The position numbers were made by a program, and so were the translations under genes. This document shows positions 8,457-45,159 of a DNA stretch of 64,000 nt, piece by piece. The first letter of the stretch is position 1. Each line of letters begins with the position of its first letter. The notes beneath the pieces were generated by a model. The model saw only the letters and a program-made list of their open reading frames with translations. It ran no database searches and was not told where the DNA came from. The stretch is from Chlorobaculum tepidum TLS. Lineage in GTDB: Bacteria; Bacteroidota; Chlorobiia; Chlorobiales; Chlorobiaceae. The stretch is taken from the NCBI RefSeq assembly GCF_000006985.1, contig NC_002932.3:1833292-1897291 (forward strand). The letters run 5' to 3'.

Positions 8457-9737
8457 TTGCTAACACGATTTGCGGAAGAGCTCCATCATCAATTTCAAGT
8501 GCCTGGCAAAAACGTGGAAGTAAAACCGCAAACTGTGGAAAAAACGAAAGATATATTCAAAAAGTGTGTGGATTTCACCCTTGCCGACGAAGTCAAAGCA
8601 CTGGGAGTATATCCTTTTTTTCGCCCTATAGATGACTCCGAAGGGCCGGTCGTCTCTTTCGAGGGCCGGAAGCTCGTGATGGCCGGCTCGAACAACTACC
8701 TTGGCCTGACCAACGATCCGAACGTCAAGCAGGCCTCGATCGACGCCATCAAGAAATACGGCACGAGCTGTTCCGGCTCGCGCTACATGACCGGAACCGT
8801 CAGGCTTCATATCGAACTTGAAGAGCAGCTTGCCGACTTTTTCGAAAAAGAGTGCTGCCTGCTGTTCAGCACCGGCTACCAGACCGGCCAGGGCATCATT
8901 CCAACCCTCGTACAACGAGGAGAGTATGTTGTTGCTGACCGCGACAATCACGCGAGCCTCGTCGCCGCGTCGATCATGGCGATTGGCGGCGGCGCAAATC
9001 AGGTGCGCTACCGGCACAACGATATGGCCGACCTGGAGCGCGTGCTTCAGAACATTCCCGAAAGCGCAGGCAAGCTGATCGTTTCGGACGGCGTGTTTTC
9101 GGTCTCGGGCGAAATCGTCGATCTTCCGGCGCTGGTGGCGCTGGCCAAAAAGTACAATGCCCGCATCGTCATTGACGACGCGCACGCCGTCGGCGTCATC
9201 GGCAAGGGCGGACGCGGCACCCCCTCGGAGTTCGGGCTGGTGAACGAGGTCGATCTCATCATGGGCACCTTCTCCAAAACCTTTGGCTCGCTCGGAGGCT
9301 ACGTCGTCGGTGAGCGCTCGGTCATCAACTACATCAAGCACACCGCCTCGTCACTCATCTTCAGCGCCTCTCCGACTCCCGCCAGCGTTGCGGCGGTGCT
9401 GGCGACTCTCAAGATCATCCGCGAGCAGCCGCAACTGACCGAACGCCTGATCGCCAACACCGACTACGTTCGCCAGGGATTGCTGAAAGCCGGATTCACG
9501 CTTATGCCGTCTCGTACGGCGATCGTAACCGTGCTGATCGCCGATCAGATGAAAACGCTCTATTTCTGGAAAAAGCTTTTCGATGCCGGAGTCTATGTCA
9601 ATGCCTTCATCCGGCCTGGCGTCATGCCTGGCCACGAAGCGCTCCGCACCAGCTTCATGGCCACCCACGAAAAAGAGCACCTCGACAAGGTCATTACCGA
9701 ATTCTGCTCCATAGGACGCGAACTTGGCGTGATATAA
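8457..9737 (+). CDS. Serine palmitoyltransferase-like alpha-oxoamine synthase
   Basis: PLP-dependent acyltransferase that condenses an amino acid with an acyl thioester, 426 aa from a TTG; GTG codons at 8499 and 8514 are alternative starts and the true one is uncertain. It carries the family's marks: [13 protein letters not shown], the DNHAS motif, IDDAHAVG and the PLP-lysine motif [11 protein letters not shown]. The YP(Y/F)FR stretch, RYMTGT and the ending FMATH follow the Bacteroides serine palmitoyltransferase closely, more so than BioF or KBL. An aminosphingolipid has been described in Chlorobium, which agrees with this call. It is divergent from the epimerase at 7291 and followed by a strong terminator. 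Confidence 0.85.
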
Positions 9738-9773
9738 AGCGTTGCGTCAAATCATGCCATTGATTACCATCAA

Positions 9774-9803
9774 AGCCCTGCGAAACCCGCAGGGCTTTTT
9801 TTT
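9774..9803 (+). terminator. Terminator after the SPT-like gene
   Basis: Stem AGCCCTGC/GCAGGGCT with a short loop, followed by eight T. Confidence 0.9.
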
Positions 9804-10036
9804 CTGCGAACAGACCATCAGCAAAACGACATACTTTGGAGTTTGCGTTAATTCACCATAAATTTACAACGTTCTGCACGTCCCACAACATGATGCGATG
9901 ATGCGTACGACCAGATATACCGATACCCTTCCTCCCGCGCCGATGAGCAACAGCGGATCGCAACAATCAACCACTGTCCGCTGGAAAGCTATGTCCTACA
10001 ACGCTCAGACAACACAAACAACCCAATACTCACATT

Positions 10037-12571
10037 ATGAAAAAGCAGCAGGCAAAGGGTTCTGGCATGAAAAGGCTCGCGCTTTCGGCGACCTTTCTTG
10101 CAACAACGCTGGCTCCAGTGACAACCTGGGGTGCGGATGGCGTCATCCGGGGACGCGTCACGGACAAGGCAGACGGTGAAGGCGTCGTCGGCGCCGCAGT
10201 ATCGATCGCCGGCACCAACATCGCAACCGCCACAGACATCAACGGCAACTTCGTGCTCCGGAACGTTCCTGCCTCGAAACAGCAGAAAGTCATCGTGACC
10301 AGCATCGGTTACGCGCCAACGACGCAGGTCATCAACCTCGGCGATGGCCAGACCGCCACGCTGAATATCGCTCTCGGCCAGACCACCATCATGGCCTCGG
10401 AAGTGGTTGTCGGCGCCGCGCTGTACAAGCAGGACAGGCTTGACGTGCCGGTTACCGCTAACATTGTCACCAAAGAGCAGATCAGGGAAGAACCAAATCC
10501 GACACTCGATGAAGTGGTGCAAGACGTGCCCGGCGTCGTGGTCAGTCGCGCTGGCGGAACCTCGTCATCGAACTTGCAGATTCGCGGATCGAATACCTAC
10601 AATGGCGGCGGTATTGGCACCAGGGTGAACGCTTTCTACGACGGCTTCCCGATCAACAGCCCGGACAGCGGCGAAATCGTCTGGCAATCGGTCAACATGA
10701 ATGCTGCCGACAAGGTCGAGGTGCTCAAGGGCGCAGCCGCAACGCTCTACGGTTCCGGAGCCATGGGCGGCGTAGTGAACATCACGGGCCATTTGCCAGA
10801 CAAATTTGAAGTCAAGGCGGGAAGCGGCATCGGCTTTTACGACAAAACGCCATCGAGCGATGAGAGCGAATATCGCAAAGGCTTCACCCCGGTATTCTGG
10901 AACACCTATGCCGGTTTCGGAAACAAGTCCGGCAAATGGACATACGACTTCCTTTACTCGCACAGCGATGACGACGGCTACCGCCAAAACGCCTGGAATT
11001 ACATGAACGACGTCAAGTTCAAAGCACGGTACGACATCGATTCAAGGCAATACTTGCAGCTCACTTCGTTCTACAACTCGACGGTCGGCGGCTATGCGTA
11101 CCAGTGGCCTTACAATGCGACAATATCGACATCCACATTCACCCCAATTCTCGATCAATCGTATGATGTATTTGTAAATGCCAGATTGTTTCCCACCCAC
11201 ACGGCGGCATTCTCGTACGCTCAAACCATGTATCCTACTAGCCCTTTTCTATGGGATATACTTGCAAATGCCTGGTCAACGTATACAAAATACGACGTCT
11301 ATACCGATGACTTGATCAGCCGGAAAAACGCTCTGGTAGGCATCAATTATGTCAACCTGCTCAGCGACAAGCTGTCACTCGACACTCGTCTGTATTACAC
11401 CTACAATGCCTCGCGAATCGAGTACAACCGCACTGATGCTGATCAGACATACGCAACCGGCAGAATCAGAACTATCGGCGAGTTCAATGAAACGGATGAC
11501 AGCCGCTATGGCGCAGGGATAAAACTCGATTGGCGTGCCAGCGATAACCATCGCCTTCTGTTTGGTGTGGACGGCAATATCGTTGACACAAGAACAACTC
11601 AGGTTGCTGTGGAATATCCGGTAAAAAACGAGTTCAACAACATCCAGGAAAAGAATTTTGCTGTCTTCCTGCAAGACGAGTGGAAAATCACTGACAAGCT
11701 GACTTCACTGATGTCGTTGCGCTATGACTGGAGCGGTGTCAACAAAGATGAAGTAGAGATAACCCCGGGAGTCTGGATACCCATTAACAAAAAAAGCGTT
11801 GATGCCTTAAGCCCAAGGGTCGCCTTAAACTACAGAGCAACCGACGACATGGCACTTCGCGCATCTTGGGGCCGTAGTTTCCGTGCCCCGTCTTTATATG
11901 AGCGGTTCGTGCATGATGCGGGATTCCTGACCGTTGTACCAAATCCAGACCTTGACAAGGAAACCATGACAGCATGGGAGGCTGGCATTTTCAAGCAGTT
12001 CAGCGATAAAGTCTCACTCGACATCGCCGGGTTTATCAACAACTATGATAACCTTATCGAGTCGCGGCCTACCGCTGCTCCATTAACCTACATGTATGGC
12101 AACATAACCAAAGCTCGCATCTGGGGTATTGAGACAAACCTGAACTACAGACCAAACACAGACTGGAACCTGAGCGTGGGCTATACCTACATGAATGCAA
12201 AAAACCGTTCGTTCGATGCATCAACGGCCACCGCTACAGAACTGAACAACCCCGATCCGGAATGGCTGCCCTATCGGCCTGAGCACACGGCTTCGGCCAG
12301 CGTGACCTGGAAAGCAACCAAAAAACTGACTCTGAATGTCAACGGGCGTTACGTCGGCAAGTACAAGGCTGTCACCTTGTACACCAATCCTGATGGCAAG
12401 TGGTATCCCGGCGATTTCGTGGTGTTCAACGCTGGCTTGAAGTACCAGTTCAACAAGAACGTCACAGCCACACTGGCCTGCAACAACATCAACAACACAC
12501 AGTACAGTGAGGCTGAGTGGTTCCGCGCTCCGAACCGCAGCTTCATCGCCGGTATCGATCTGACGTACTGA
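10037..12571 (+). CDS. TonB-dependent outer-membrane receptor
   Basis: Outer-membrane receptor of 844 aa. A signal peptide lies at about 11-34 (hydrophobic core LALSATFLATTLAPVT). It is followed by a carboxypeptidase-regulatory-like beta domain (36-115, GVIRGRVTDKADGEGVVGA), a plug domain (about 130-245, with LQIRG and VEVLKGAAATLYGSGAMGGVVNI-type core) and a beta-barrel ending in an aromatic residue (IDLTY). The substrate is not readable from sequence. Its place directly upstream of the tetrapyrrole genes, which include the B12-dependent BchE, makes a corrinoid or metal chelate plausible, but I found no B12 riboswitch in the leader. A terminator isolates it from bchS. Confidence 0.93.
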   Translation: MKKQQAKGSGMKRLALSATFLATTLAPVTTWGADGVIRGRVTDKADGEGVVGAAVSIAGTNIATATDINGNFVLRNVPASKQQKVIVTSIGYAPTTQVINLGDGQTATLNIALGQTTIMASEVVVGAALYKQDRLDVPVTANIVTKEQIREEPNPTLDEVVQDVPGVVVSRAGGTSSSNLQIRGSNTYNGGGIGTRVNAFYDGFPINSPDSGEIVWQSVNMNAADKVEVLKGAAATLYGSGAMGGVVNITGHLPDKFEVKAGSGIGFYDKTPSSDESEYRKGFTPVFWNTYAGFGNKSGKWTYDFLYSHSDDDGYRQNAWNYMNDVKFKARYDIDSRQYLQLTSFYNSTVGGYAYQWPYNATISTSTFTPILDQSYDVFVNARLFPTHTAAFSYAQTMYPTSPFLWDILANAWSTYTKYDVYTDDLISRKNALVGINYVNLLSDKLSLDTRLYYTYNASRIEYNRTDADQTYATGRIRTIGEFNETDDSRYGAGIKLDWRASDNHRLLFGVDGNIVDTRTTQVAVEYPVKNEFNNIQEKNFAVFLQDEWKITDKLTSLMSLRYDWSGVNKDEVEITPGVWIPINKKSVDALSPRVALNYRATDDMALRASWGRSFRAPSLYERFVHDAGFLTVVPNPDLDKETMTAWEAGIFKQFSDKVSLDIAGFINNYDNLIESRPTAAPLTYMYGNITKARIWGIETNLNYRPNTDWNLSVGYTYMNAKNRSFDASTATATELNNPDPEWLPYRPEHTASASVTWKATKKLTLNVNGRYVGKYKAVTLYTNPDGKWYPGDFVVFNAGLKYQFNKNVTATLACNNINNTQYSEAEWFRAPNRSFIAGIDLTY

Positions 12572-24333: not shown

Positions 24334-24722
24334 ATGGAGATGCGACGGTTGGGAACGACGGATATGGAGCTCACGCCGGTCGGGTTCGGCTGCTGGGCTA
24401 TCGGAGGCGCGAACTGAGCTTATGGCTGGGGAGCGCAGAGCGACCGTGACGCCATCGAGGCGATTGAGAAAGCTGTGGAGCGTGGCATCAACTGGATCGA
24501 TACGGCGGCGGTGTACGGCCTCGGCCACGCCGAGGAGCTTGTAGGCAAAGCGCTGCGAGGTCTTTGCGAGAAGCCGCTGGTATTCACCAAGTGCGGGCTT
24601 GTGTGGGACGAGAACCGCGCCATCGGCGTCATCGTCTATTCGCCAATGCTTTCAGGAATGCTCACCGGCGCGATGACGCGCGAGCGGGCGCTGAACCTTC
24701 CTGCGGACGACTGGCAGCGCAA
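24334..24722 (+). pseudogene. Aldo/keto reductase, 5' fragment (gene split by cassette array)
   Basis: N-terminal part of an NADPH-dependent aldo/keto reductase (MEMRRLGTTDMELTPVGFGCWAIGG). It is broken in three ways. A TGA at 24415-24417 sits where the family has a Trp codon (GAN-stop-AYGWG). About 100 residues are missing between LVWDEN and RAIGVIVYSPM. The frame is then interrupted after WQR by the cassette array. The missing C-terminal part is at 33352-33607. Base composition matches the host chromosome. Confidence 0.9.
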
Positions 24723-24787
24723 CGCTTAAGCTCACCTGTCGTTATGGAGCGTAGCGGAATAGCGGTCAGGTGGAGCGCCTTGTTAGC
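24717..24787 (-). repeat. attC-like site 1 (after the disulfide reductase)
   Basis: Imperfect palindrome on the minus strand: GCTAAC core, then AAGGCGCTCCACCTGACCGC, a spacer, then GGTGAGCTTAAGCG and the crossover G^TTGCGC shared with the host junction. It is nearly identical to the site at 30901-30970 (about three differences over 65 bases). It starts right at the stop of the reductase gene, as expected for a cassette. Confidence 0.85.
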
Positions 24788-26186
24788 TTTTACTGAGCAT
24801 CTTTTGGGCCAATATGCCAAATGCTTCCGTCAGAGTAGGGTGCGGATGTATTGTTTCGGCGACATTTTTGAGAATTAATCGATTTGCTATAATCAATGAG
24901 GCTTCTCCTGCCAACGATGATGCGTTATTCATGCAAATGTGGACGCCTATAATTTCCGAGTTTTTTTTGTTGACCACATACTTCAGATAGCCAAAAGGCG
25001 AATTCATAACTTGAGCAGCTGCGTCAATTTTGTAATCATACACACCGGTAATAATATCATACCCTTCTTGAACGGCCTGAGCCTCTGTAAACCCTGCTGC
25101 AACAATCTCCGGCTCAGAGAATAGTACCCAGGTGTTTTTGGAAAAATCGACTTTCTGATTATTTCCCGCTGAAATATTTGCTGATGCTATATGAGCTTCA
25201 TAGGTGGCAGTATGAGCAAATTTCGGCCCATGAGTGACATCGCCTGTAGCATAAATACCCTTCACGGAAGTTTCAAGATATTCATCAACGATGATCCCTT
25301 TTCGGTCGTATTTTATATCAGTCGAATCTAAATTGAGAGATTCAATATTCGGTACTTTTCCTGTAACTACAAGCACATCCTCGAAATTTTCTTTGTGCTC
25401 AGAGCCATTTGCATCTGTGAATGTCACATCAAAATGCCCATCGGACTTATTGATTTCCTGCACTTGGGATGAGGTGTAAATGTTGACTCCTAAGCTAGAA
25501 AGCTGATTGCTAATGATTGAGACAAACTCTGTCTCAACAACGCCATACAGAATGCTATCAAGCAGTTCAATGATTGTGCATTTCGTGCCTAACTTGGTAA
25601 GCATTTGAGCCAATTCAATACCGATTGGCCCCCCTCCGATAATAAGTAGTGATTCGGGAAGTTTATCTTGCGAAAAAAGTACTTCGCTTGTCAACACATC
25701 TTGAACACCATTGCCCTTGAAGGGAGGTATGAAAGAGTGAGACCCCGTGGCTATAATGGCCTTATTGAAGGTATATTTTTCTTTTCGTCCGGTATCTTTT
25801 TCGTTGATAACCAATTCATTATTAGAAACAAATTTGGCATGACCAGCAACAAACCTTAGATTTGACAAATGCTTTAACATTTGCATCGCTGCACCAGATC
25901 GTTGACTGAGAATGGTCTGCATTTTACGCATAATCTCATTCCACGCCGCTTCTCTGTCCTCTGGTGACAGAGCCTCCTGAGCAGAGTATTTGAGCTTAAC
26001 AGCATACTCATCCGCCCAATGCCGGATAATCTTGGACGGAATGCAACCGACAAACAAACATGCACCTCCAAGTTTTCCAGATTCTTCAACAAGTAAAACG
26101 GTTTTGCCTTGAGAAGCTAACTGCATAGCGGCCGGGGTTCCACCAGGGCCACCTCCAATTATGATAACATCGAATTTAGTGCTCAT
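24783..26186 (-). CDS. Dihydrolipoamide dehydrogenase-like flavin disulfide reductase (cassette gene)
   Basis: Class I pyridine nucleotide-disulfide oxidoreductase of 467 aa. The FAD motif IIIGGGPGGTPAA is at about 9-21. The redox-active pair is in GGACLFVGCIPSK, about 40-52. The NAD domain has IIGGGPIGIELA near 178. The dimerisation domain ends with HPHPTLTE, carrying the catalytic His-Glu pair. It resembles dihydrolipoamide dehydrogenase and mercuric-reductase relatives, but it has no N-terminal metal-binding domain and the C-terminal Cys pair of MerA is absent. A good ribosome site AAGGAGA lies within the cassette, 31 bases after the cassette edge. The substrate is unknown. Confidence 0.88.
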   Translation of the reverse strand: MSTKFDVIIIGGGPGGTPAAMQLASQGKTVLLVEESGKLGGACLFVGCIPSKIIRHWADEYAVKLKYSAQEALSPEDREAAWNEIMRKMQTILSQRSGAAMQMLKHLSNLRFVAGHAKFVSNNELVINEKDTGRKEKYTFNKAIIATGSHSFIPPFKGNGVQDVLTSEVLFSQDKLPESLLIIGGGPIGIELAQMLTKLGTKCTIIELLDSILYGVVETEFVSIISNQLSSLGVNIYTSSQVQEINKSDGHFDVTFTDANGSEHKENFEDVLVVTGKVPNIESLNLDSTDIKYDRKGIIVDEYLETSVKGIYATGDVTHGPKFAHTATYEAHIASANISAGNNQKVDFSKNTWVLFSEPEIVAAGFTEAQAVQEGYDIITGVYDYKIDAAAQVMNSPFGYLKYVVNKKNSEIIGVHICMNNASSLAGEASLIIANRLILKNVAETIHPHPTLTEAFGILAQKMLSKS

Positions 26187-26210
26187 AATAAGTCTCCTTT
26201 GAATAGTAAA

Positions 26211-26354
26211 AGCTAACGTTTGACAATATGAAACGGCTGGTTTTTTAGGCTACGTTCTTGTCCACCGATAAGAAAGTTGGCGCGAGAACCAAACCATCGC
26301 AAACCACTGAACCCTAACTGTTTTATATTGTGTGTTGTGTGCTTGGCGTTATTA
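26211..26354 (-). repeat. Probable degenerate attC-like site 2 (after enolase)
   Basis: Between the enolase stop and the next cassette. The minus strand runs from AATAACGCC through ACACAATATAAAAC to GTTTCATATTGTCAAACGTTAGCT. The arms pair imperfectly, and the right core GTTAGCT is good while the left one is degenerate. It is longer (about 144 bp) than the other sites. Confidence 0.5.
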
Positions 26355-26364
26355 ATTTCAGTTT

Positions 26365-27648
26365 TTATTTTGCATTTTTAAAGGCTTTCAATCCTGCAAA
26401 TTGAGCTGATTTACCCAATTCATTTTCAATCCGCATAAGTTGATTGAATTTTTCTATTCTTTCTCCTCGACAACCACTACCACTCTTAAGATGTCCAGCA
26501 TTAATTCCTACTGTCAAATCGGCAATAAAACTATCAACCGTTTCTCCACTCCGATGGGAAACAAAACAATTATATGAATTTTTATATGCAAGTTCAATCG
26601 TTTCTAAAGTCTCTGTCACAGTACCTATTTGATTCAATTTTATCAGGATAGAATTTGCAACGCCTTTATTTATACCATTTAATAAAATTGATTTATTAGT
26701 ACAGAACAAATCATCGCCAACAATCTCGATTTTGTTTCCGATTACATCTGTAAGATTTTTCCAACCTTCCCAGTCATTTTCAGCCATTCCATCTTCTAGT
26801 AATACAATTGGGTATTGATTTACCCAGCTTTCCCACAATTTCACCATTTCATCACTGGAAACCAATTTCTGAGTACTTTTAAAGAATTTGTATTTCCCAT
26901 TTTCCCACATTTCACTTGAAGCCGGGTCAAGACAAATACTAACATCTACACTTGGCTTATAACCAGCTTTAGTAATCCCTTCTAATATCATTTCAACGGC
27001 TTGTTCATTGGATTTTAAGTCTGGAGCAAAACCGCCTTCATCTCCAACGCCAGTGCTTAATCCTTTTAACTTTAATACAGCTTTCAAGGCGTGAAAAACT
27101 TCTTCGCCCATACGGATTGATTCTCTAAACGATGGAGCGTTATGTGGAGCAATCATAAATTCCTGAAAGTCTATTGTATTGTCTGCATGTTTACCTCCAT
27201 TGATGACATTCATACAGGGAACAGGCATAATGTGAGCATTACTGCCGCCTAAATATTGATATAGCGGAGTACGTGAACTTTGCGCTTTTGCACGGGCAAA
27301 AGCCATTGAAACACCAAGTATCGCATTAGCCCCTAGTTTAGATTTGTTATTAGTTTCGTCAAGTTCAATAAGAAAATAGTCCAATTCTCGTTGATTGGTA
27401 AAGTGTTTATTCTCAATGGCTTTTGCAATGGCTGAATTAACATTCTCGACAGCTTTTAAAACACCTTTACCGCCATAGCGCTTTTTGTCGCCATCTCTAA
27501 GTTCTGTTGCTTCTCTTTCTCCCGTTGATGCTCCACTTGGAACCATTGCACGAGAAATAGTACCGTCTTCAAGTTTTAAATTCACTTCAACGGTTGGGTT
27601 TCCTCTCGAATCGAGAATCTCGATAGCATTAACATTTTGAATTTTCAT
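26365..27648 (-). CDS. eno: Enolase (cassette gene)
   Basis: Phosphopyruvate hydratase, 427 aa, full length; converts 2-phosphoglycerate to phosphoenolpyruvate. Visible motifs are [20 protein letters not shown], the catalytic Glu region EGGF-like [38 protein letters not shown] and SHRSGET, so metal ligands and catalytic Lys/His appear intact. The sequence is markedly AT-rich against the surrounding chromosome. AUGGAGGAAA-type ribosome site precedes the ATG. It lies inside the cassette array, with a 27-bp tandem duplication and an insertion sequence upstream. It is probably an additional, acquired copy, since the chromosomal enolase is not expected here; that cannot be checked in this window. 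Confidence 0.95.
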
Positions 27649-27680
27649 AACTTATTTCCTCCATTTTTTTAAAAAAAATT

Positions 27681-27734
27681 TTCAATCAATTTACAAAAAT
27701 TAAGATGTTCAATCAATTTACAAAAATTAAGATG
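27681..27734. repeat. 27-bp perfect tandem duplication upstream of enolase
   Basis: Two adjacent identical copies (27681-27707 and 27708-27734) beginning TTCAATCAATTTACAAAA. They lie 33-86 bp upstream of the enolase start, in its likely promoter or leader. Confidence 0.9.
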
Positions 27735-27836
27735 ATGATGCGTATGTTTCTTCACCTTGCACACAATGTTTAACTCACTGGCTTGTCCATGTGTAGTGGC
27801 TTGTTGATATGCCCCTGGAAAGTGGGGGTGGTATAA

Positions 27837-29114
27837 GGCCACCTCTAAAAAGTCGGCAATAATATAAAGCGTTGAAATATATTGACGTAGCTGCGATATA
27901 AGTCTTGAAATATCCGTATGTTGACGTAGTACCTATCAACCCGACTGCGCTGCTATGAAAAACATCAACCCGCCTGGCTTTTTTGATGAGCATTTTCTGC
28001 TCGAACGCCTCACCAAACTCAAGGATCCGCTCGTCAAACTTGAAGCGCATATCGACTGGCAACTTTTTGCTCCCATTCTCGAAGTAGCTTTCAGCAAGCC
28101 AGCCAATCGCAAGAACATGGGTCGCCCACCGTTCGACCGGTTGATGATGTTCAAACTCCTCATTCTCCAGAGCCTGTACAACCTTTCCGACGACCAGATG
28201 GAGTACCAGATCACCGACCGTTTGAGCTTCAAGCGATTCCTTGGCCTGAAAGCGAGCGACAAGGTTCCGGACAGCAAAACCATCTGGAAATTCCGGGAAA
28301 CCCTTATTCAGGAAGAACTTATCGAGGCGTTGTTTTTCCGCTTCAATCAGGCGCTCGATGAGCAGTGTATCTTTGCTCGAAACGGACAACTGGTCGATGC
28401 CAGCATTGTCGAGGTGCCGCGCCAGCGCAACAGCCGCGACCAAAACGCTCAGATCAAGCAGGGCCAGACGCCGGAAGCCTGGAAACAGAAGCCCAACAAG
28501 CTGCGCCAGAAAGATGTCGATGCCCGGTGGTTGAAGAAAACCATGTCAAGGTCGATAAAGGCACCAAACTCATCAACAACTGGATGGTAACGCCCGCCTG
28601 CAAGCACGATTCCCAAGAGCTGGAAGCGCTGCTCGAAAAACAAGATATGGGCCAGCCGCTGTACGGCGACAGCGCCTATGTCGGACAGCAAGCTATTATC
28701 GACGAGTGTGAAATGACCAATGAAGTCCACGAAAAAGGAACGAAAGGCCATCCGCTGACCGAAGAGCAAAAAGCCTCGAATCGGGTGAAATCAAAGAGCC
28801 GTGCGCGAGTCGAGCATGTGTTTGGCTTCATGACCAACTCGATGAAAGCGATGTATGTCAGAACGATCGGCTCTGTGCGGGCCGTTGCAAAGATCGGTCT
28901 GACGAACCTGACCCTACAACCTGATGCGCTGCACGCAGCTCAACAAAAAAGTGCACAACGTCTTTCTCTGGGGATAACTACGCCCTGTCGCGGCTGAAAA
29001 GCTGTTTACAGGGACAATACTGTCAATAAATAACTGCTTTGCAGGGCAGAATGGCCCTGTTTCGTTGAAATACAAAACCGGGAATATTTCAGATCACCCT
29101 TTTTAGAGGTGCCC
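27837..29114 (+). mobile_element. IS5-type insertion sequence, inactive
   Basis: 1278-bp element bounded by 16-bp inverted repeats GGCCACCTCTAAAAAG (27837-27852) and the complement of GGGCACCTCTAAAAAG (29099-29114), with one mismatch. It is flanked by a 4-bp direct repeat ATAA (27833-27836 and 29115-29118). It sits within the leader of the enolase cassette. Its only gene is a frameshifted transposase. Confidence 0.88.
27955..28977 (+). pseudogene. IS5-family transposase with two frameshifts
   Basis: DDE transposase of the IS5 type: FDRLMMFKLLILQSLYNLSD, the first catalytic Asp in QLVDASIVEVPRQRNSRD, and DSAYVGQ and the HxxGF-like HVFGF region downstream. The frame breaks near 28545, where the usual Gly/Tyr-rich stretch before KNHVKVD is deleted, and again near 28912 (one extra C). 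Read through in the corrected frame it ends VHNVFLWG at TAA 28975-28977. It cannot make a full transposase. Confidence 0.88.
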
Positions 29115-29159
29115 ATAATTCTCCTTTGACTGCGGCGAAGCCTTGCTTCGCTCTGTCCG

Positions 29160-29231
29160 TCATAACGAGCAAGCTGTGCGGCGCAAACTACGCTCCGCTT
29201 CGTTTGCGCCCAAACAAGCGCCTTGTTATGC
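29160..29231 (-). repeat. attC-like site 3 (after the CDF transporter)
   Basis: Outer cores CATAAC/GTTATG enclose GAGCAAGC and GCGCCTT arms and a perfect inner stem GCGCAAAC/GTTTGCGC. About 72 bp. The next cassette begins TTATGACGG on the minus strand. Confidence 0.8.
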
Positions 29232-29507
29232 GCTGTGTTCACGGAGTACCTGAGCATGCGTGCCACCTTTCCAGCCAGTATTTGATATTTTTACGAAATC
29301 TGTATGTTTGCAGTTTTCTCAATATAACTTAAACACCAAAGTGAACCCATGTTTAGTTTTTTTCTTAAAATTTAAGTTTTACGGGTTATCTGGTGTTTCT
29401 TCTCTCACTCCATACTCCAAAATACGCATAATATATTTATCAAGGCAATTGAGGGAAAAAAGTAAAAAACTATTTTTAGTAGGTTCTAAACTAGCAAAAT
29501 ATATTTT
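29232..29507. other. Non-coding part of the CDF cassette
   Basis: About 275 AT-rich bases between the transporter stop and its attC-like site. No gene or clear structure seen. Confidence 0.4.
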
Positions 29508-30674
29508 TCATGTTTCATCATTTTTTTCTTTTTTGACTTCAATGTTCAATGCCTCAAACAACGTCAGTATATTCTCATCTAATTCTGCATTACCCATGAC
29601 AATCGTGTCTGTATGGATAGAAAGCAGATAGGCAACCAGCCTGAAAGCCTTGCCTTTGGGTGCTATAACTGCGGAATTTTTGACAAATTCCTTGCTGATT
29701 TGCTTATTATCTGCTTCAATATGCGTGATCTCCAACCATGCCGTTTGACCGAAGTGTATGCTCAGGTGTTTTTTGTCTTTATCCAGAAGCCTGACAACAG
29801 TCCTGTAGGGTGGATGATCGGGCTCATAATGGATGGTCACCGCTTCGAGTGTGTTTATCTCTTCATGCAACCTGTTGACCACTTCATCAATGCTTTTGTG
29901 TGCTTTTGCCGTAGCGACTTCTGCAATACTCAACTCGATATCGGCAAAATAGACGCTGCCCGATTTTCGTACATTTAATCGTTTGATATTAGTAATATCC
30001 GGCTCTGCCATGACGATGTTACGGATGGTATCGTTCATCTCTATGTCGGCTGCATCAAGCAAGGAAAGCAATCCCTCTTTTAGTACATCATAAGCGCCCT
30101 TTAGAATCATCAGTACAATGATGATCACCGAGACTTCCTGAGCATATGGGACCTTGTAATGATGGGCTACCAGACCGATGACGACGATCATCCCCGCTCC
30201 GATGTCTCCCAGCCAGTTTACCGCATCAGCTTTGACACCAGGCGATCCGAGCCGTTGTGCTGCTTTGAGCTCGAAAAAGTAGAAAGTGTACTGTATAAAG
30301 ACAATCGCCAAAATGAAGCCAATCGTGGTCCAGATTGCTTCTGGAGTTTTGATACCTGCTTCAAAAAAGACCGAATGGATGATCTCATACCCTGCGTAGA
30401 GTATCCCCAAACCACCAAGGACTGCCGCCATATCTTCAAGTTTGTGCAAACCGTAGGGGAAGCGCTCGGATTTATGAGCGGCAAAAAAAAGCGCAAGGAA
30501 GATGAGCAGCGCCCCGAACACATCGGAGATGGAGTGTATACCGTCCGCGACAACGAGTGTGGAACCCATCATCCATCCCCATCCCAGTTTGGCCACTGCC
30601 AGCGTAGCATTGAGCAGTGTGGAAAAAAAGAGCCAGCGCTGTTTCTCGTCGGTTCTGCGTATATGGATGATCAT
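29508..30674 (-). CDS. Cation diffusion facilitator fused to a NifX/FeMo-Co-like domain (cassette gene)
   Basis: Metal-cation/proton antiporter of the CDF family, 388 aa from the ATG chosen; a GTG four codons upstream is the alternative. About 15-210 is the six-helix membrane domain with the metal-site residues in VADGIHSISDV (HxxxD type) and NWLGDIGA (the second site). A cytoplasmic ferredoxin-like CDF domain follows to about 285. The last 100 residues resemble the NifX/NifY-type dinitrogenase iron-molybdenum cofactor fold (LSIHFGQTAWLEITHIEAD...VMGNAELDEN). Such CDF-NifX fusions exist in a minority of bacteria. The transported metal cannot be told; Fe, Zn or Co are possible. Confidence 0.85.
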   Translation of the reverse strand: MIIHIRRTDEKQRWLFFSTLLNATLAVAKLGWGWMMGSTLVVADGIHSISDVFGALLIFLALFFAAHKSERFPYGLHKLEDMAAVLGGLGILYAGYEIIHSVFFEAGIKTPEAIWTTIGFILAIVFIQYTFYFFELKAAQRLGSPGVKADAVNWLGDIGAGMIVVIGLVAHHYKVPYAQEVSVIIIVLMILKGAYDVLKEGLLSLLDAADIEMNDTIRNIVMAEPDITNIKRLNVRKSGSVYFADIELSIAEVATAKAHKSIDEVVNRLHEEINTLEAVTIHYEPDHPPYRTVVRLLDKDKKHLSIHFGQTAWLEITHIEADNKQISKEFVKNSAVIAPKGKAFRLVAYLLSIHTDTIVMGNAELDENILTLFEALNIEVKKEKNDET

Positions 30675-30900
30675 TTTCTTTTCCACTTTATTTTAGGCAT
30701 CCTTTCATGGCGGCCTCTGAGCCGTGATATGGCTTGCCATTATTAAATTTAAAGGCTGTCCATCTGAGTGCTGTGGGCACAAGATATTGCGACGTCATCT
30801 AAGGAATGCGCTCTTTTGTTCACCACCAATAGGGATTACAGCATTTACATGGATACCCCTTTTTAAATTTTGCCATTTATACATTTCTCATTTGTTTGCA

Positions 30901-30970
30901 CATAACGCTTAAGCTCACCTGCCGTTATGGAACGTAGCAGAATAGCGGTCAGGTGGAGCGCCTTGTTAGC
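30901..30970 (-). repeat. attC-like site 4 (after the permease)
   Basis: Palindrome CATAACGCTTAAGCTCACC ... GGTGGAGCGCCTTGTTAGC, 70 bp. Nearly the same sequence as site 1, pointing to one source array. It begins 11 bp after the permease stop. Confidence 0.88.
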
Positions 30971-30981
30971 TCCTTGATATT

Positions 30982-32070
30982 TCATAACGAAACATCCGCA
31001 CCATACAATAGAAAATATAGCCCTATTGATACAAATAATGCAATGTAACCTATGACGAGAAACTTGACAGTAAATCCAACAGTATCATTTGTACCCTTGT
31101 TTTTGACATATATTTTGTAAGCTATCAGATTTGCCAGTGAACCAAATAAACTGCCAAATCCTCCTGCATTCACGCCCCACAACAATGCCTGCCACTTGGG
31201 CGTGCAATTAGCAAACAACAGTGCTGCTGGAACATTACTCATAACCTGGCTTGCCAAGACTGAAAACAGGAAAATATGCTCAGAATGAGTGATTTTGGGA
31301 CCTAAAATTACCTTGAGATTGTCGGCAATACCAAAAAAGAAAAGGAAACTAAATAATAGCGCATAATCAACATTCAGAGATTTTCGGTCAAAAATCAGCG
31401 CAAAAAGGATGACCACAACGGCACTTAAAACAGGAAGAACATGAAAGACTGCCAGGAGCACAATAGCAAGCAACACACCATAAACAAATGCTTTTTTATT
31501 TATGTTCTGAACATGGTTTTCCTGTAACACTCTTTTGGTTCTAAAAGAAAGCGAGGCAATTATTAACAAAACGAGAAACATCAAAGAAAACGGTGCTATT
31601 GTTTTGATAAATACGCCTGGGGGAACATTATAGAACCAGTAAATAAAAAGGTTTTGAGGATTGCCTACTGGTGTTAATGCCGACCCTGCATTGGCAGCCA
31701 ATGCCTCGAGAATTACAAGTATTCCTTTCCTATTTACAGTAAGTGATAACGTGAGCGGTACAATAACTATTAGAGAAATATCGTTCGTTACCAGCATTGA
31801 AAGGAAAAATGTTATTACTACCAACTTTAAGGGTATGAGCTTCCCTTTCTCTATTTTTTGAGCGATTTTTAATATAGTTCCGCTTTTCAGCAGTCCATTT
31901 ACTGCAATAAATAAAACAAACAGGAGAAATAGAACCTGTATTTCATTGGCTGAGTATTCTGGCAAACGCTTTATATAAACGGACGTCAACACCAAAACCA
32001 CGCCAGAGCCTACCAGCAACCATTCCTTTAAGACAAAATCAATCAATGACGCTTGAACTTTCAAAAACAC
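30982..32070 (-). CDS. ArsB/CitM (SLC13)-type permease (cassette gene)
   Basis: Integral membrane protein of 362 aa with about ten hydrophobic segments, starting at a GTG. The loop motif ALTPVGNPQNLFIYW and the preceding MLVTNDISLIVIVPL are characteristic of the ArsB/NhaD/citrate (ion transporter) superfamily. It is shorter than ArsB (about 430 aa), so it may be a compact relative. The substrate (arsenite, dicarboxylate or sodium) is not evident. The gene starts about 25 bases from its cassette edge and ends at attC-like site 4. Confidence 0.8.
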   Translation of the reverse strand: MFLKVQASLIDFVLKEWLLVGSGVVLVLTSVYIKRLPEYSANEIQVLFLLFVLFIAVNGLLKSGTILKIAQKIEKGKLIPLKLVVITFFLSMLVTNDISLIVIVPLTLSLTVNRKGILVILEALAANAGSALTPVGNPQNLFIYWFYNVPPGVFIKTIAPFSLMFLVLLIIASLSFRTKRVLQENHVQNINKKAFVYGVLLAIVLLAVFHVLPVLSAVVVILFALIFDRKSLNVDYALLFSFLFFFGIADNLKVILGPKITHSEHIFLFSVLASQVMSNVPAALLFANCTPKWQALLWGVNAGGFGSLFGSLANLIAYKIYVKNKGTNDTVGFTVKFLVIGYIALFVSIGLYFLLYGADVSL

Positions 32071-32090
32071 TCCGCTTATTGTATTTGGGG

Positions 32091-32170
32091 GCTAACGCCG
32101 AAGCTCAGGGGCGGACTGACCGACCGACGCGGAGCGGCGGTCGGTCAGTCCGCTGGAGCGCCTTGTTGGG
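32091..32170 (-). repeat. attC-like site 5 (after the DUF4352-like gene)
   Basis: Cores GCTAAC and GTTGGG flank CGCCGAAGCTC and GAGCGCCTT arms. The inner stem CGGACTGACCGACCG pairs perfectly with CGGTCGGTCAGTCCG. About 80 bp, the best-paired site of the set. Confidence 0.9.
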
Positions 32171-32172
32171 CA

Positions 32173-32685
32173 TCATTTTAGTCCGAGATCGACGAGAGCC
32201 TTATCGCTGGACCAGTATCCACCTGATACCTCTAACTTGTAGTGCTTGCCCCGCGGAACATCAAAAACAATATACCCGCGTTTCTCTACACCCGGATTCA
32301 AACTATCCAGAATACCGATGCTGCCATCAACCGACCATGCGTTGCTGCTTGTCTCATATTCGGCGCCGTTTTCGTCTATGAGCTTGAAGGGTGCGATTGT
32401 TCTCGCCTCTTTATCGTCGTTGCGAACCGTGATGTCGACGAACAGATACGCGGCATCTGGAGGTTGATTGATGTATGGATTATCACTGAGCTGGTTTCGG
32501 TAGAAGGCTTTCCATACAGCGTATGACATATACCCCACGTGTGCTGTCTCTCCAATCTTGTAATTCGTGGTCGTAGCGCCATCGTCGGAGTTTCCTGCCG
32601 CGCCAACGCCAAAGCTTCCTGCCGCCAATATACAGAGCATTAATAATAAAAGCCCAGACAGTACATGTTTATAGACCTTTTGCAT
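32173..32685 (-). CDS. Exported DUF4352-like protein (cassette gene)
   Basis: 170 aa. Residues about 8-30 form a signal peptide or membrane anchor (LSGLLLLMLCILAAGS). The rest is a single beta-sandwich resembling DUF4352/telomeric-repeat-binding-type domains: YKIGETAHVG, AAYLFVDITVRNDDKE, FKLIDENGAEYE and GYIVFDVP. The function of this family is unknown, and a surface or periplasmic role is expected. It overlaps the upstream gene by 17 bases, so the two are translationally coupled within one cassette. Confidence 0.78.
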   Translation of the reverse strand: MQKVYKHVLSGLLLLMLCILAAGSFGVGAAGNSDDGATTTNYKIGETAHVGYMSYAVWKAFYRNQLSDNPYINQPPDAAYLFVDITVRNDDKEARTIAPFKLIDENGAEYETSSNAWSVDGSIGILDSLNPGVEKRGYIVFDVPRGKHYKLEVSGGYWSSDKALVDLGLK

Positions 32686-33124
32686 CGCTTACCTCCTTTA
32701 TTGCGTGATTTTTGTTACCTATGGTAATTGCTAGCGGAATGAAGATGAGCATTAGAGATATGTCAGTAGTATCGTAGGTTCCCGGAACGATTCCTACCAA
32801 TTGGCCAATTTCGGAGCCAACTGCTGTCATGGAAAACAATAGCACCCAGAACATCCTCTCTGAACAGGCATCCTTCCAAATGCTGTAAAAAAGCAAGATG
32901 CCTCCAAACGCCCACAGTGCATTTGGCAAAGAAAAGTAAACCCATTCTGGCATGACCAATGAGTATGAATGAGCAAATTCTCTCAATAAGGCAACAAAAG
33001 GTTTTAGCCCTATGGAATAAAACCATGAAAACATGAGCAAGCTTTGCTTACGCCATAACACATAGATCATGCCTCCGAAAACAATGCTAAATATTCCGAT
33101 TACCGTATTTCTGTTCTTTTTCAT
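32669..33124 (-). CDS. Small polytopic membrane protein, VanZ-like in part (cassette gene)
   Basis: 151 aa with four hydrophobic segments (about 8-24, 38-58, 68-85 and 120-138). The segment GSEIGQLVGIVPGTYDTTDISL resembles the E-x-x-Q ... G-T-x-D-x-x-D signature of VanZ-like proteins, but the rest does not help, so the function is unassigned. It overlaps the next gene by 17 bases. Upstream, a tiny frame (MKRNMKKRTNNLLASRT) ends in ATGA over this gene's start. Confidence 0.7.
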   Translation of the reverse strand: MKKNRNTVIGIFSIVFGGMIYVLWRKQSLLMFSWFYSIGLKPFVALLREFAHSYSLVMPEWVYFSLPNALWAFGGILLFYSIWKDACSERMFWVLLFSMTAVGSEIGQLVGIVPGTYDTTDISLMLIFIPLAITIGNKNHAIKEVSDAKGL

Positions 33125-33138
33125 GTTCTTGAAGCTAA

Positions 33139-33351
33139 CAAGTTATTAGTTCTTTTCTTCATATTTCGTTTCATGTGACGCTCATCAACAGTGTTCTGTA
33201 ATGAAATCCCTTAAAAGCTACCACAAAAGCCAAGCAAAATCAAGAATAGTTTGAATTTTATCTTTATTGATATGATATTGAAAGCAGGATAAACGAGAAT
33301 AAGGGTATCACTTATGATCACCTTGCCGAAAGCGCTTGTAGACAAATTCAA
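33139..33351 (-). other. Leading segment of the cassette array, no clear gene
   Basis: 213 bp between the right host junction and a GTTAGC core at 33134-33139. On the minus strand it starts TTGAATTTGTC, fitting a cassette edge, but I see no full attC palindrome and no gene longer than 17 codons. It may be a decayed cassette, or the remains of an attachment site and promoter region for the array. A TTGCTT...TAGCTT pair in it could be a weak promoter. Confidence 0.4.
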
Positions 33352-33607
33352 CAGGGAGTTCCAGGAACCGCGCCTCTCCGCCAATCTTGAACTGGTCGAG
33401 CTTTTGCGCCGCATCGGCAAGCAGCACAACACCTCGCCGGGCGAAGTCGCCATCGACTGGACGCTCCGCCATCCGGCGGTCACGGCGGCGATTGTCGGCG
33501 GACGCACCGCGGTGCAGGTCGAAGACACGGTTAGGGCCGCCAGCCTCGCGCTTTCGGAGCAGAAGATCAGTGAGATCGAAGCCTTTCTCGCCTCCATGCC
33601 TGCATAA
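33352..33607 (+). pseudogene. Aldo/keto reductase, 3' fragment
   Basis: Encodes the C-terminal end of the aldo/keto reductase (REFQEPRLSANLELVELLR...SPGEVAIDWTLRHPAVTAAIVGGRT). It continues the 5' fragment at 24334-24722 in the same frame once the array is removed. An ATG at 33314 inside the array gives it an open frame, but no independent function is expected. Confidence 0.9.
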
Positions 33608-44019: not shown

Positions 44020-45159
44020 GTCTTCCCCACGCCCGTGGGGGTGTTTCCACCGAAACCGCGCAATTGCTGTACGCATGGGACGTCTTCCCCACGCCCGTGG
44101 GGGTGTTTCTTTCTACCCATTACCAACACAAGGGGCGCGCGTGTCTTCCCCACGCCCGTGGGGGTGTTTCCAACAACAACCAAAAAACTCAAAACTTACG
44201 GAGTCCGTCTTCCCCACGCCCGTGGGGGTGTTTCCATGCGACGCCTTTTGTCTAACTTGACAACGATGTCTTCCCCACGCCCGTGGGGGTGTTTCTCACG
44301 CGATTGCGGCGTTCGCGCTGATCAAAAAGGTCTTCCCCACGCCCGTGGGGGTGTTTCCCATGTTATCATTTCAGAAACAAGAAAAGAATGAGTCTTCCCC
44401 ACGCCCGTGGGGGTGTTTCTGGGATAACCGTATAGGAAGCGTAGCAGTGCAGGGTCTTCCCCACGCCCGTGGGGGTGTTTCCCTTGATTGCCCGCGCCGT
44501 TATGGGCGGCGGGCGTCTTCCCCACGCCCGTGGGGGTGTTTCCAAGGAACAATTTGAAATTCTCACGCAAGGAACGTCTTCCCCACGCCCGTGGGGGTGT
44601 TTCCACTACAATATCATAAAGCAAGGCGTCTCCGCATGGTCTTCCCCACGCCCGTGGGGGTGTTTCCTCTTGGGGGATCGAGGGCCTTCAATTTGCCGGG
44701 TCTTCCCCACGCCCGTGGGGGTGTTTCTCACGCGCTGGCGGCAAAGGCGTTAATTGAACGCTGTCTTCCCCACGCCCGTGGGGGTGTTTCTAAAAAAGTG
44801 CTTGCTTTTTGGAAAAAATGAATGTCTTCCCCACGCCCGTGGGGGTGTTTCTGGTGTATAGCATCTAATCCAGTAATCTTTTTAGTCTTCCCCACGCCCG
44901 TGGGGGTGTTTCTGTCAGGACATATCACTTAGAGCTTATGAGCGAGTCTTCCCCACGCCCGTGGGGGTGTTTCCAAGTATATGGCTCACTTCCCGGATAA
45001 TTACGGGTCTTCCCCACGCCCGTGGGGGTGTTTCCAAAAACCGGAGACCAACCATGAAACAGGAACAGGTCTTCCCCACGCCCGTGGGGGTGTTTCCGCC
45101 TCGGGTCGCCGGGGCGTTGTCTTTGACCCGTGTCTTCCCCACGCCCGTGGGGGTGTTTC
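44020..45159 (+). CRISPR. Type I-E CRISPR array, 19 repeats and 18 spacers
   Basis: Nineteen repeats of 28 bp, each starting GTCTTCCCCACGC and ending CCGTGGGGGTGTTTC (these two strings overlap in the centre), all identical by eye including the last. The palindrome CCCCACG/CGTGGGG gives the Cas6e hairpin. Repeat starts: 44020, 44082, 44143, 44207, 44268, 44330, 44392, 44454, 44515, 44576, 44639, 44700, 44763, 44824, 44885, 44946, 45007, 45069 and 45132. Spacer lengths: nine of 33, five of 34, three of 35 and one of 36. Every spacer begins with C or T. Orientation follows the cas genes. There is no separate leader. Confidence 0.98.

Follow-up and report, generated by a model that had tools for sequence, protein, structure and literature searches.

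A Cassette Array Inside a Reductase Gene

The chromosome of Chlorobaculum tepidum TLS carries, within the 64,000-nucleotide stretch analysed here (the window; NC_002932.3, positions 1,833,292 to 1,897,291), an AT-rich insert of 8629 bp at window positions 24723-33351 that interrupts an aldo/keto reductase gene. This insert is very probably a cassette array without an integrase (CALIN), placed at a non-classical G^TT site by an integron integrase (IntI) that has since been lost or was supplied in trans. Junctions and alignment to relatives delimit an array of five units on the minus strand (24723..33351), with a GC content of 0.426, whereas the 20-kb flanks have 0.566 and 0.578. The array thus represents a natural multi-cassette example of cassette insertion outside any integron.

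Like other CALINs, the array holds classical attC sites (three to four) and one-directional genes, with no adjoining integrase; it differs in lying inside a single chromosomal gene, both halves of which are kept, and in having one site of another family among its five. Cassette insertion at non-classical secondary sites (attG) has reportedly been described by Loot et al. in 2024. The array shares with such events an attC joined to G^TT in ordinary DNA; it differs in comprising several cassettes, in having arisen naturally within a gene that has decayed, and in its 3-bp misfit to relatives. Secondary-site insertion by IntI at a GNT/GTT core is also documented in passages of a published report (PMC10127599).

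Insertion Site and Junctions

The 5' part of the reductase, now a pseudogene, occupies 24334..24722 on the plus strand, as aligned to the intact genes of relatives (loci L068-L075 and L077), and the 3' part, recognised by family search and the same kind of alignment, continues at 33352..33607 (plus). Two further lesions are present: an in-frame TGA at 24415..24417 (plus), in place of the TGG (Trp) of relatives, and an in-frame loss of 312 nt whose junction lies at about 24620/24621 (24618..24623, plus). The gene may have been decaying already when the insert arrived, or have begun to decay afterwards. The alignment proposed in the earlier note shows the reductase uninterrupted in relatives, with an open frame of at least 291 aa in 58 of the 60 other genomes that have a match; model R1, described below, finds no attC at E ≤ 0.01 in 29 reductase loci of relatives.

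On the plus strand, the left junction reads ...CAGCGCAA^CGCTTAAG at 24722/24723 and the right junction ...AATTCAA^CAGGGAG at 33351/33352. The limits and junction coordinates given in the earlier note are exact, and G^TT is present, as claimed there, at both outer junctions when these are read on the minus strand. The first cassette starts with TTGAATT (33345..33351, minus) directly after the G^TT crossover, as placed from the junction and the cassette boundaries, and at the other end the array's final base, next to the reductase, coincides exactly with the attC crossover base.

Excision of 24723-33351 had been expected to restore the family sequence W-Q-R-N-R-E-F. The match is not exact: all nine aligned relatives read W-R-R-N-N-K/R-E-F, so that excision at G^TT leaves the reductase one AAC (Asn) codon short. 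Because an exact exchange at G^TT leaves one GTT (3 bp) fewer, placement by IntI requires slippage in GTTGTT, either before or after insertion, which counts against it; the minus strand of the uninterrupted gene would have read either CTGTTGTTGCG or CTGTTGCG.

This misfit bears on a different origin, in which a transposon or homologous or illegitimate recombination delivered the block, with the attC sites as passengers. The insert is bordered by CGCAAC and AACAGGG, and the flanking 3-bp AAC repeat could then be a target duplication; an insertion sequence (IS) does lie inside. Since relatives already have two Asn codons, however, such a duplication would also need a loss. Moreover, none of the 22 inverted-repeat pairs listed (at least 18 nt) joins the outer ends 24723 and 33351, no shorter one was seen by eye, the IS is internal with its own ATAA repeats, and the array meets the reductase precisely at the attC crossover base. 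We therefore regard this origin as the least probable of those considered, and placement by IntI remains the preferred reading.

attC Sites of the Array

Covariance model R1 was trained on 15 attC sites from other genomes, all at Chlorobiaceae loci where attC lies beside intI genes or intI fragments. This independent model, run as the covariance check suggested in the earlier note, locates four sites in the array, all on the minus strand. With default filters it finds the attC of the first cassette (32090..32171, 48.7 bits), that of the transporter cassette (30900..30971, 42.4 bits) and that of the last, oxidoreductase cassette (24717..24788, 37.2 bits), whose GTT forms the junction between array and reductase. 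The divergent attC of the cation-efflux cassette (29160..29231) scores 19.1 bits (E 0.0016) with filters off; this weak site is missed with default filters and lies within the background of a profile scan. The array therefore has three attC sites close together, or four with filters off, where IntegronFinder 2 defines a CALIN by at least two.

The claim that genes are followed by attC-like palindromes is thus borne out for four classical sites, while the fifth, 26340-26211, belongs to another family, which had been overlooked. In each of the five sites (5/5), the GTT of the 3' box coincides with the cassette boundary. The two palindromes described as almost identical, at 24721 and 30904, are indeed 96% identical over 68 nt.

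The profile scan returned 56.5, 48.1, 42.1 and 29.2 for the four classical sites but did not find 26340-26211. With the array-overlapping locus L067 set aside, the highest score in its background of 148,092 bases is 30.0, so that a score of 29.2 alone is not significant. Minimum-free-energy folding of the plus strand was not decisive, with z values of -6.7 (32090), -1.6 (30900), -2.0 (29160), -1.8 (26211) and -0.4 (24717). Nor could a scan for palindromes tell the sites apart from shuffled sequence, the five sites scoring 52, 43, 43, 40 and 40 on the better strand against 45 for the best of 20 shuffles. Two over-strict pattern scans for the sites returned nothing in one case and one match in the other. 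The arms of the twin sites recur in two records of an 84,980-species collection, one being a Pelobacter MAG with an intI-like gene in two frames, as judged by eye.

Cassette Genes and the Insertion Sequence

Between 24783 and 32685, every gene that family searches identify lies on the minus strand, except for the IS; the single gene direction claimed earlier accordingly holds for the cassette genes and fails for the plus-strand IS at 27837-29114. The last cassette encodes a pyridine nucleotide-disulphide oxidoreductase resembling dihydrolipoyl dehydrogenase (24783..26186, minus), which stays under the curated NCBIfam cut-off in each of the 25 families listed. An extra enolase copy follows (26365..27648, minus; TIGR01060, 640.9 bits), sharing 58% identity over 278 aa with a second enolase gene. 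A search with the N-terminal domain had found the cassette copy alone, and the idea that it is the only enolase was dropped because the sequence searched contains the second gene only in part.

The IS (27837..29114, plus) was identified by family search; its DUF772 transposase is apparently split between two frames, and 4-bp ATAA repeats flank it. It lies within the enolase cassette and has a 99.5% identical copy elsewhere in the genome; in view of the repeats and this copy, an IS-made deletion fusing two cassettes was rejected. Further units encode a cation diffusion facilitator (29508..30686, minus; TIGR01297, 151.3 bits, cut-off 82.35) and, by family search, a CitMHS-type ion transporter (30982..32070, minus), for which a search of the 85 remaining Chlorobiaceae genomes gave no homologue at E ≤ 1e-20. 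A DUF4352 protein, also found by family search (32173..32685, minus), and a reading frame of 151 aa (32669..33124, minus), which matches nothing in Pfam or NCBIfam at E ≤ 0.001, complete the array.

The earlier note took the array to have been captured whole. Clean outer junctions, a single orientation and two near-identical attC sites that suggest a common source would suit one-step capture of a multi-cassette circle. This cannot be asserted from the sequence, because successive insertions at attC sites would produce the same result, and the other-family site and the quite different attC sites inside point to several sources. One-step capture is thus possible but doubtful.

Integrase Genes and attC Sites in the Genome and Clade

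The absence of an integrase near the array is borne out by the genome search for intI: in the searched part of the genome no full integron integrase exceeds the TIGR02249 cut-off, the best piece scoring 86.4 bits against a cut-off of 265 and lying about 370 kb from the array. That piece belongs to another recombinase family. The integrase-like piece at 1488565, considered as an IntI remnant and rejected as such, is the deleted end of a member of this second recombinase family. Between the two reductase parts there is no integrase match, and neither intI nor attI is present at the window locus. Above the curated cut-off, intI occurs in 15 of 86 Chlorobiaceae genomes, which places the enzyme at hand in the clade, and in 2 of 21 genomes of the genus, the present one counted.

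Complete integrons have been reported in Chlorobi (PMC9024848), and in the Chlorobiaceae loci where intI stands beside attC (for example L050, L053, L054 and L058) the attC sites are of the same family as those of the array, whose locus lacks intI and attI. CALINs are proposed in the same source (PMC9024848) to be degraded integrons, and intI fragments do occur near attC in other Chlorobiaceae (L063-L065). It could be supposed that the array is what is left of a once complete integron that lost its intI and attI on the spot, by decay or deletion. Both edges, however, run straight into the two parts of a single reductase gene, no integrase match lies between these parts, and of the 60 other genomes that have a match 58 keep that gene in a long open frame, which makes decay in place highly unlikely, if marginally less so than delivery by a transposon or recombination. 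The evidence continues to favour insertion by IntI.

Elsewhere in the genome, classical attC sites occur at five places (680306 and 681137; 1354641; 1644281 and 1644387; 1094069; 1375777; E ≤ 4.1e-4), with weak candidates at 1567220 (E 0.017) and about 1088847 (27.2 bits; L144 848-903). As 150 of the 1897 candidates were scored, these numbers are a lower bound. No empty site was resolved for the pair at 680-681 kb. Scattered classical attC sites without a full intI fit repeated integration away from attI. The genome is small, and with these five places, the two weak candidates and the lack of a full intI in its searched part it lends itself to testing whether insertion at non-classical sites has a lasting influence on how genomes are shaped.

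The following course of events would account for the array. An IntI formerly in the lineage, or briefly supplied in trans, would have acted on the reductase locus, where the folded, single-stranded attC of a circular cassette, or of a multi-cassette circle, may have recombined with the reductase G^TT, with exchange at G^TT. More cassettes may have entered later at attC sites, and the IS would then have arrived in the enolase cassette. With the integrase gone, the array would now be stranded.

Long-Hairpin Sites and a Second Recombinase Family

The site after the enolase gene (26211..26340, minus) is attC-like and about 130 nt long. It scores 9.6 bits under R1, hence is not a classical attC, and 76.0 bits (E 5.9e-16) under a second model, R2, whose training did not include the window sequence 26340-26211. 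One unit bearing a site of this second, long-hairpin family means that the array mixes cassettes of two pools.

In Bacteroidota, long hairpins of this family accompany a tyrosine recombinase without the IntI-specific domain, always on the same strand (67/67 sites). The sites, about 130 nt long and running from AAC to GTT, covary, and arrays of them adjoin the second-family recombinase; among 20 loci from other parts of the phylum that had no share in the training, 18 have such hairpins with it. The columns of the IntI-specific insert hold 7 residues in all 21 second-family recombinases, against 34 in all 16 IntI rows (including two pairs of identical rows). The domain is held to be essential for IntI.

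Judged by these sequence patterns, hairpins and recombinase together are probably an unrecognised integron-like system, a second cassette system that is widespread in the phylum and apparently undescribed so far. IntegronFinder 2.0 would not call it a complete integron, since the tool requires the IntI-specific domain. The enolase site shares its site family with the Bacteroidota arrays that stand behind tyrosine recombinases near NCBIfam NF040815, and differs in that no recombinase lies at the window locus. The genome does hold, elsewhere, an internally deleted copy of the second recombinase; four long hairpins come after it, and three of them belong to the R2 family. We lean, with some reserve, towards placing the enolase site at the margin of a second integron-like system that spans the phylum. 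In this system an IntI-like recombinase lacking the domain would read its hairpins differently from IntI, and cassettes would have passed between it and classical integrons. The mixed array suggests such traffic.

One site of the window thus leads to a Bacteroidota recombinase family that heads hairpin-site arrays without the IntI-specific domain. If this recombinase works on its hairpins, the supposed necessity of the extra domain for cassette recombination would need revision, as would surveys that find hardly any complete integrons in Bacteroidetes, and an origin of integrons from Xer-like enzymes would become testable with living intermediates.

Whether the enolase unit was itself placed by the second recombinase family instead of IntI bears on the array's history. 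The site clearly belongs to the long family, and the deleted recombinase copy with its hairpins shows the family's presence in this genome. Against this, the neighbouring site on either side is a classical attC whose G^TT boundaries are the same, and a single enzyme could have handled all sites. A further point against it is that the boundary between the two families of sites may be gradual, since R2 matches, weakly, three long attC sites beside intI (27.4, 21.8 and 19.1 bits). Placement by the second family is accordingly a tentative option, less likely than not.

Structure of the cassette array and its target gene

The insert at window positions 24723-33351 (adding 1,833,291 gives the position in the genome, a single contig of 2,154,946 bp) spans 8629 bp and has a GC fraction of 0.426; the 20-kb flanks have 0.566 and 0.578. 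It comprises five cassette units on the minus strand, each closed by G^TT. Unit 1 (1256 bp) holds a 151-aa frame that matched no family and a DUF4352 protein; unit 2 (1190 bp), a CitMHS-type transporter for which no homologue was found in the other 85 Chlorobiaceae genomes at E<=1e-20; unit 3 (1740 bp), a cation diffusion facilitator; unit 4 (2949 bp), an enolase with an insertion sequence (IS) in front of it; and unit 5 (1494 bp), a dihydrolipoyl dehydrogenase-like oxidoreductase, which reached the curated cut-off for none of the 25 NCBIfam families among the matches listed. The IS (27837-29114) is flanked by 4-bp ATAA and recurs at another place in the genome with 99.5% identity, and so is read as a simple guest.

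The 3' part of the interrupted aldo/keto reductase has a match at E<=1e-20 in 61 of 86 family genomes, its own included; in 58 of the 60 others the match lies within an open frame of 291 aa or longer. The earlier note held that excision restores the family sequence. The gene is indeed whole in relatives, but the insertion point reads W-R-R-N-N-K/R-E-F in all nine aligned, and the restored sequence is one Asn short. With CGCAAC to the left of the insert and AACAGGG to its right, a precise AA^C exchange (minus-strand G^TT) would leave one AAC in the emptied gene versus two Asn codons in relatives. A GTT unit would therefore have gone missing at some stage, be it before, during or after the insertion; the simplest guess is slippage in a GTTGTT repeat. 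Two further lesions mark the reductase: a TGA in frame at 24415-24417, and the loss of 312 nt that leaves the frame intact.

Two families of hairpin sites

To model classical attC, attC-like sites adjoining intI genes or fragments in other Chlorobiaceae were picked by script and by eye, and 15 of the shorter ones were aligned to train a covariance model, R1. A second model, R2, was trained on 15 long-hairpin sites of about 130 nt, excluding the window's and including three from another place in the same genome; the E-values of both are rough. R1 found three window sites on the minus strand with default filters (48.7, 42.4 and 37.2 bits) and a weak fourth on that strand once the filters were switched off (19.1 bits, E 0.0016). 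The site at 26340-26211 scored just 9.6 bits in R1 and 76.0 bits (E 5.9e-16) in R2, making it a member of the long-hairpin family. Covariance modelling supports the attC-like palindromes reported earlier, with three classical sites, a weak fourth, and one site of the second family. In 29 reductase loci of relatives, R1 gave no match at E<=0.01 and R2 none at E<=1.

The border between the families may not be sharp, since R2 weakly matches three long attC adjoining intI (27.4 bits in L053, 21.8 in L048 and 19.1 in L055) and one classical attC (32.8 bits) occurs at one of the 24 second-family loci fetched, L157.

Origin of the array

The earlier note saw no integrase near the array, and a TIGR02249 scan of the readable part of the C. 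tepidum genome found no integron integrase over the cut-off. Such an enzyme occurs in 15 of 86 family genomes, two of them within the genus. Further classical attC in the C. tepidum genome number at least seven, at five places, with E<=4.1e-4 in R1 (150 of 1897 candidates scored; a lower bound): 680306 and 681137, 1354641, an inverted pair at 1644281 and 1644387, 1094069, and 1375777. Weaker sites lie at 1567220 (E 0.017) and about 1088847 (27.2 bits). Insertion at non-classical sites would be expected to leave attC scattered without intI, and may account for these.

Two of these places have features of their own. The pair at 1644281-1644445 stands head to head in opposite orientation with about 40 bp between, some 1.2 kb from the 99.5% identical copy of the IS. 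The pair at 680306-681209 flanks a 233-aa gene, JAB/RadC-like by eye and without an NCBIfam match, in a region variable relative to the related genome G016, beside an apparent duplicated piece of a thiF-like gene end.

The best-supported origin is that IntI would have recombined folded attC with G^TT in the reductase, the integrase having been lost afterwards; entry in one step and stepwise growth would fit the sequence equally well. Since the arms of the twin attC (24717-24788 and 30900-30971), scanned against a collection of 84,980 species, recur in two records, a Firmicutes and a Pelobacter MAG, a cassette pool outside Chlorobi is plausible. In the Pelobacter MAG an intI-like gene is split over two frames, as judged by eye; on the Firmicutes contig, the attC at L097 1586-1658 is nearly identical to the twin attC in both arms.

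The locus is real, and the earlier note read it mostly well: it is best taken as a CALIN lodged at a non-classical G^TT site within a chromosomal gene that is decaying. PMC10127599 describes recombination at secondary sites that have a minimal GNT core, and PMC12444791 describes Xanthomonas CALINs away from the integron platform, comparing them to E. coli attG insertion. Taken alone, the array is an instance of an already known kind; its interest is raised by the mixture of site families and by the probable phylum-wide system at which the odd enolase site hints.

A second recombinase with long-hairpin arrays

Across the 86 Chlorobiaceae genomes, R2 found at least 104 sites, spread over 38 genomes (E<=1e-8, strict filters; a lower bound). 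At a threshold of 80 bits, set above IntI matches, the associated tyrosine recombinase gave 27 matches in 21 genomes, 20 of them with an R2 site within 10 kb; some of the seven without one are fragments or lie at contig ends. On contigs outside the training set, sites occurred near 12 of 19 matches, and all 20 of these sites lie downstream and share the strand of the recombinase; among the 20 sites on training contigs, two lie upstream and 18 downstream. Long sites were present in 18 of 21 genomes having the recombinase versus 20 of 65 without it (Fisher p 1.1e-5).

Beyond the family, 394 Bacteroidota genomes were searched and 91 of them match the recombinase at E<=1e-60, among them ten Chlorobiaceae; the weaker matches, at 35-48% identity, could represent Xer-like proteins of another kind. 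The best 20 matches outside Chlorobiaceae, leaving out G124 (at a contig start), were taken with as much as about 8 kb of downstream and 1 kb of upstream sequence, or less where a contig ended. R2 found 67 sites (E<=1e-5) at 18 of these 20 loci; all 67 are on the recombinase strand, which alone, not downstream position, is a fair count given how the stretches were cut. One array has eight sites in 8.8 kb with same-direction frames between, the listed recombinase match of that genome being only weak and Xer-like.

Covariation in the alignment supports the long hairpin: 92.6% of cells are paired, and both partners vary in 16 of 18 pairs, whereas sliding the partners lowers the paired share to 37-42%. 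This comparison favours the structure, which was derived from the same alignment. At L199-L218 and L153-L163 (Bacteroidota and Chlorobiaceae genomes), recombinases without the IntI-specific domain head same-strand arrays of covarying AAC...GTT hairpins of about 130 nt.

Relation to IntI

The IntI-specific insert columns hold 7 residues in 21 of 21 recombinases versus 34 in 16 of 16 IntI rows, which include two identical pairs; another two recombinases, removed from the count because of their length, also lack the insert. Judged by the insert that defines IntI, the second recombinase is not one. When a tree was built that includes two long-branched Xer proteins, the recombinases clustered with modest support (90/72) and IntI with 100/100. 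The best NCBIfam match is NF040815 (217.4 bits, cut-off 220). Among chains of solved structure, the two closest in sequence are Xer-like proteins, and IntI4 comes next.

In the open-licence PMC literature, as far as its accessible text extends, no published account of long-hairpin arrays was found. PMC9668308 states that IntegronFinder requires the IntI-specific domain. According to PMC9024848, the complete integron that this tool newly reported for Bacteroidetes proper is that of Salinibacter ruber M1, Chlorobi and Ignavibacteriae cases being already known. A tyrosine-recombinase classification describes an 'integron-like' subgroup in which the insertion is not fully conserved (PMC8138268); this subgroup may include the second recombinase family.

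Second-family sites elsewhere in the genome

The integrase-like piece at genome position 1488565 is the deleted end of a tyrosine recombinase of 390-500 aa, full-length relatives of which are present in other genomes. This internally deleted gene and the four hairpin sites of about 96-134 nt after it, three of them R2 training sites, form a degenerate second-family array (1488565-1490921; L014 about 9490-11922). By eye, the small genes between the hairpins are SHOCT-like and DUF805-like. Long-family sites also lie at 1805774-1808095 (three clustered) and 1730640 (single), with no recombinase there among the matches listed. Elsewhere in the window, two short tandem arrays (44207-44358 and 44884-45037) of units of about 61-62 bp share GTCTTCCCCACGCCCGTGGGGGTGTTTCC and resemble small CRISPR arrays.
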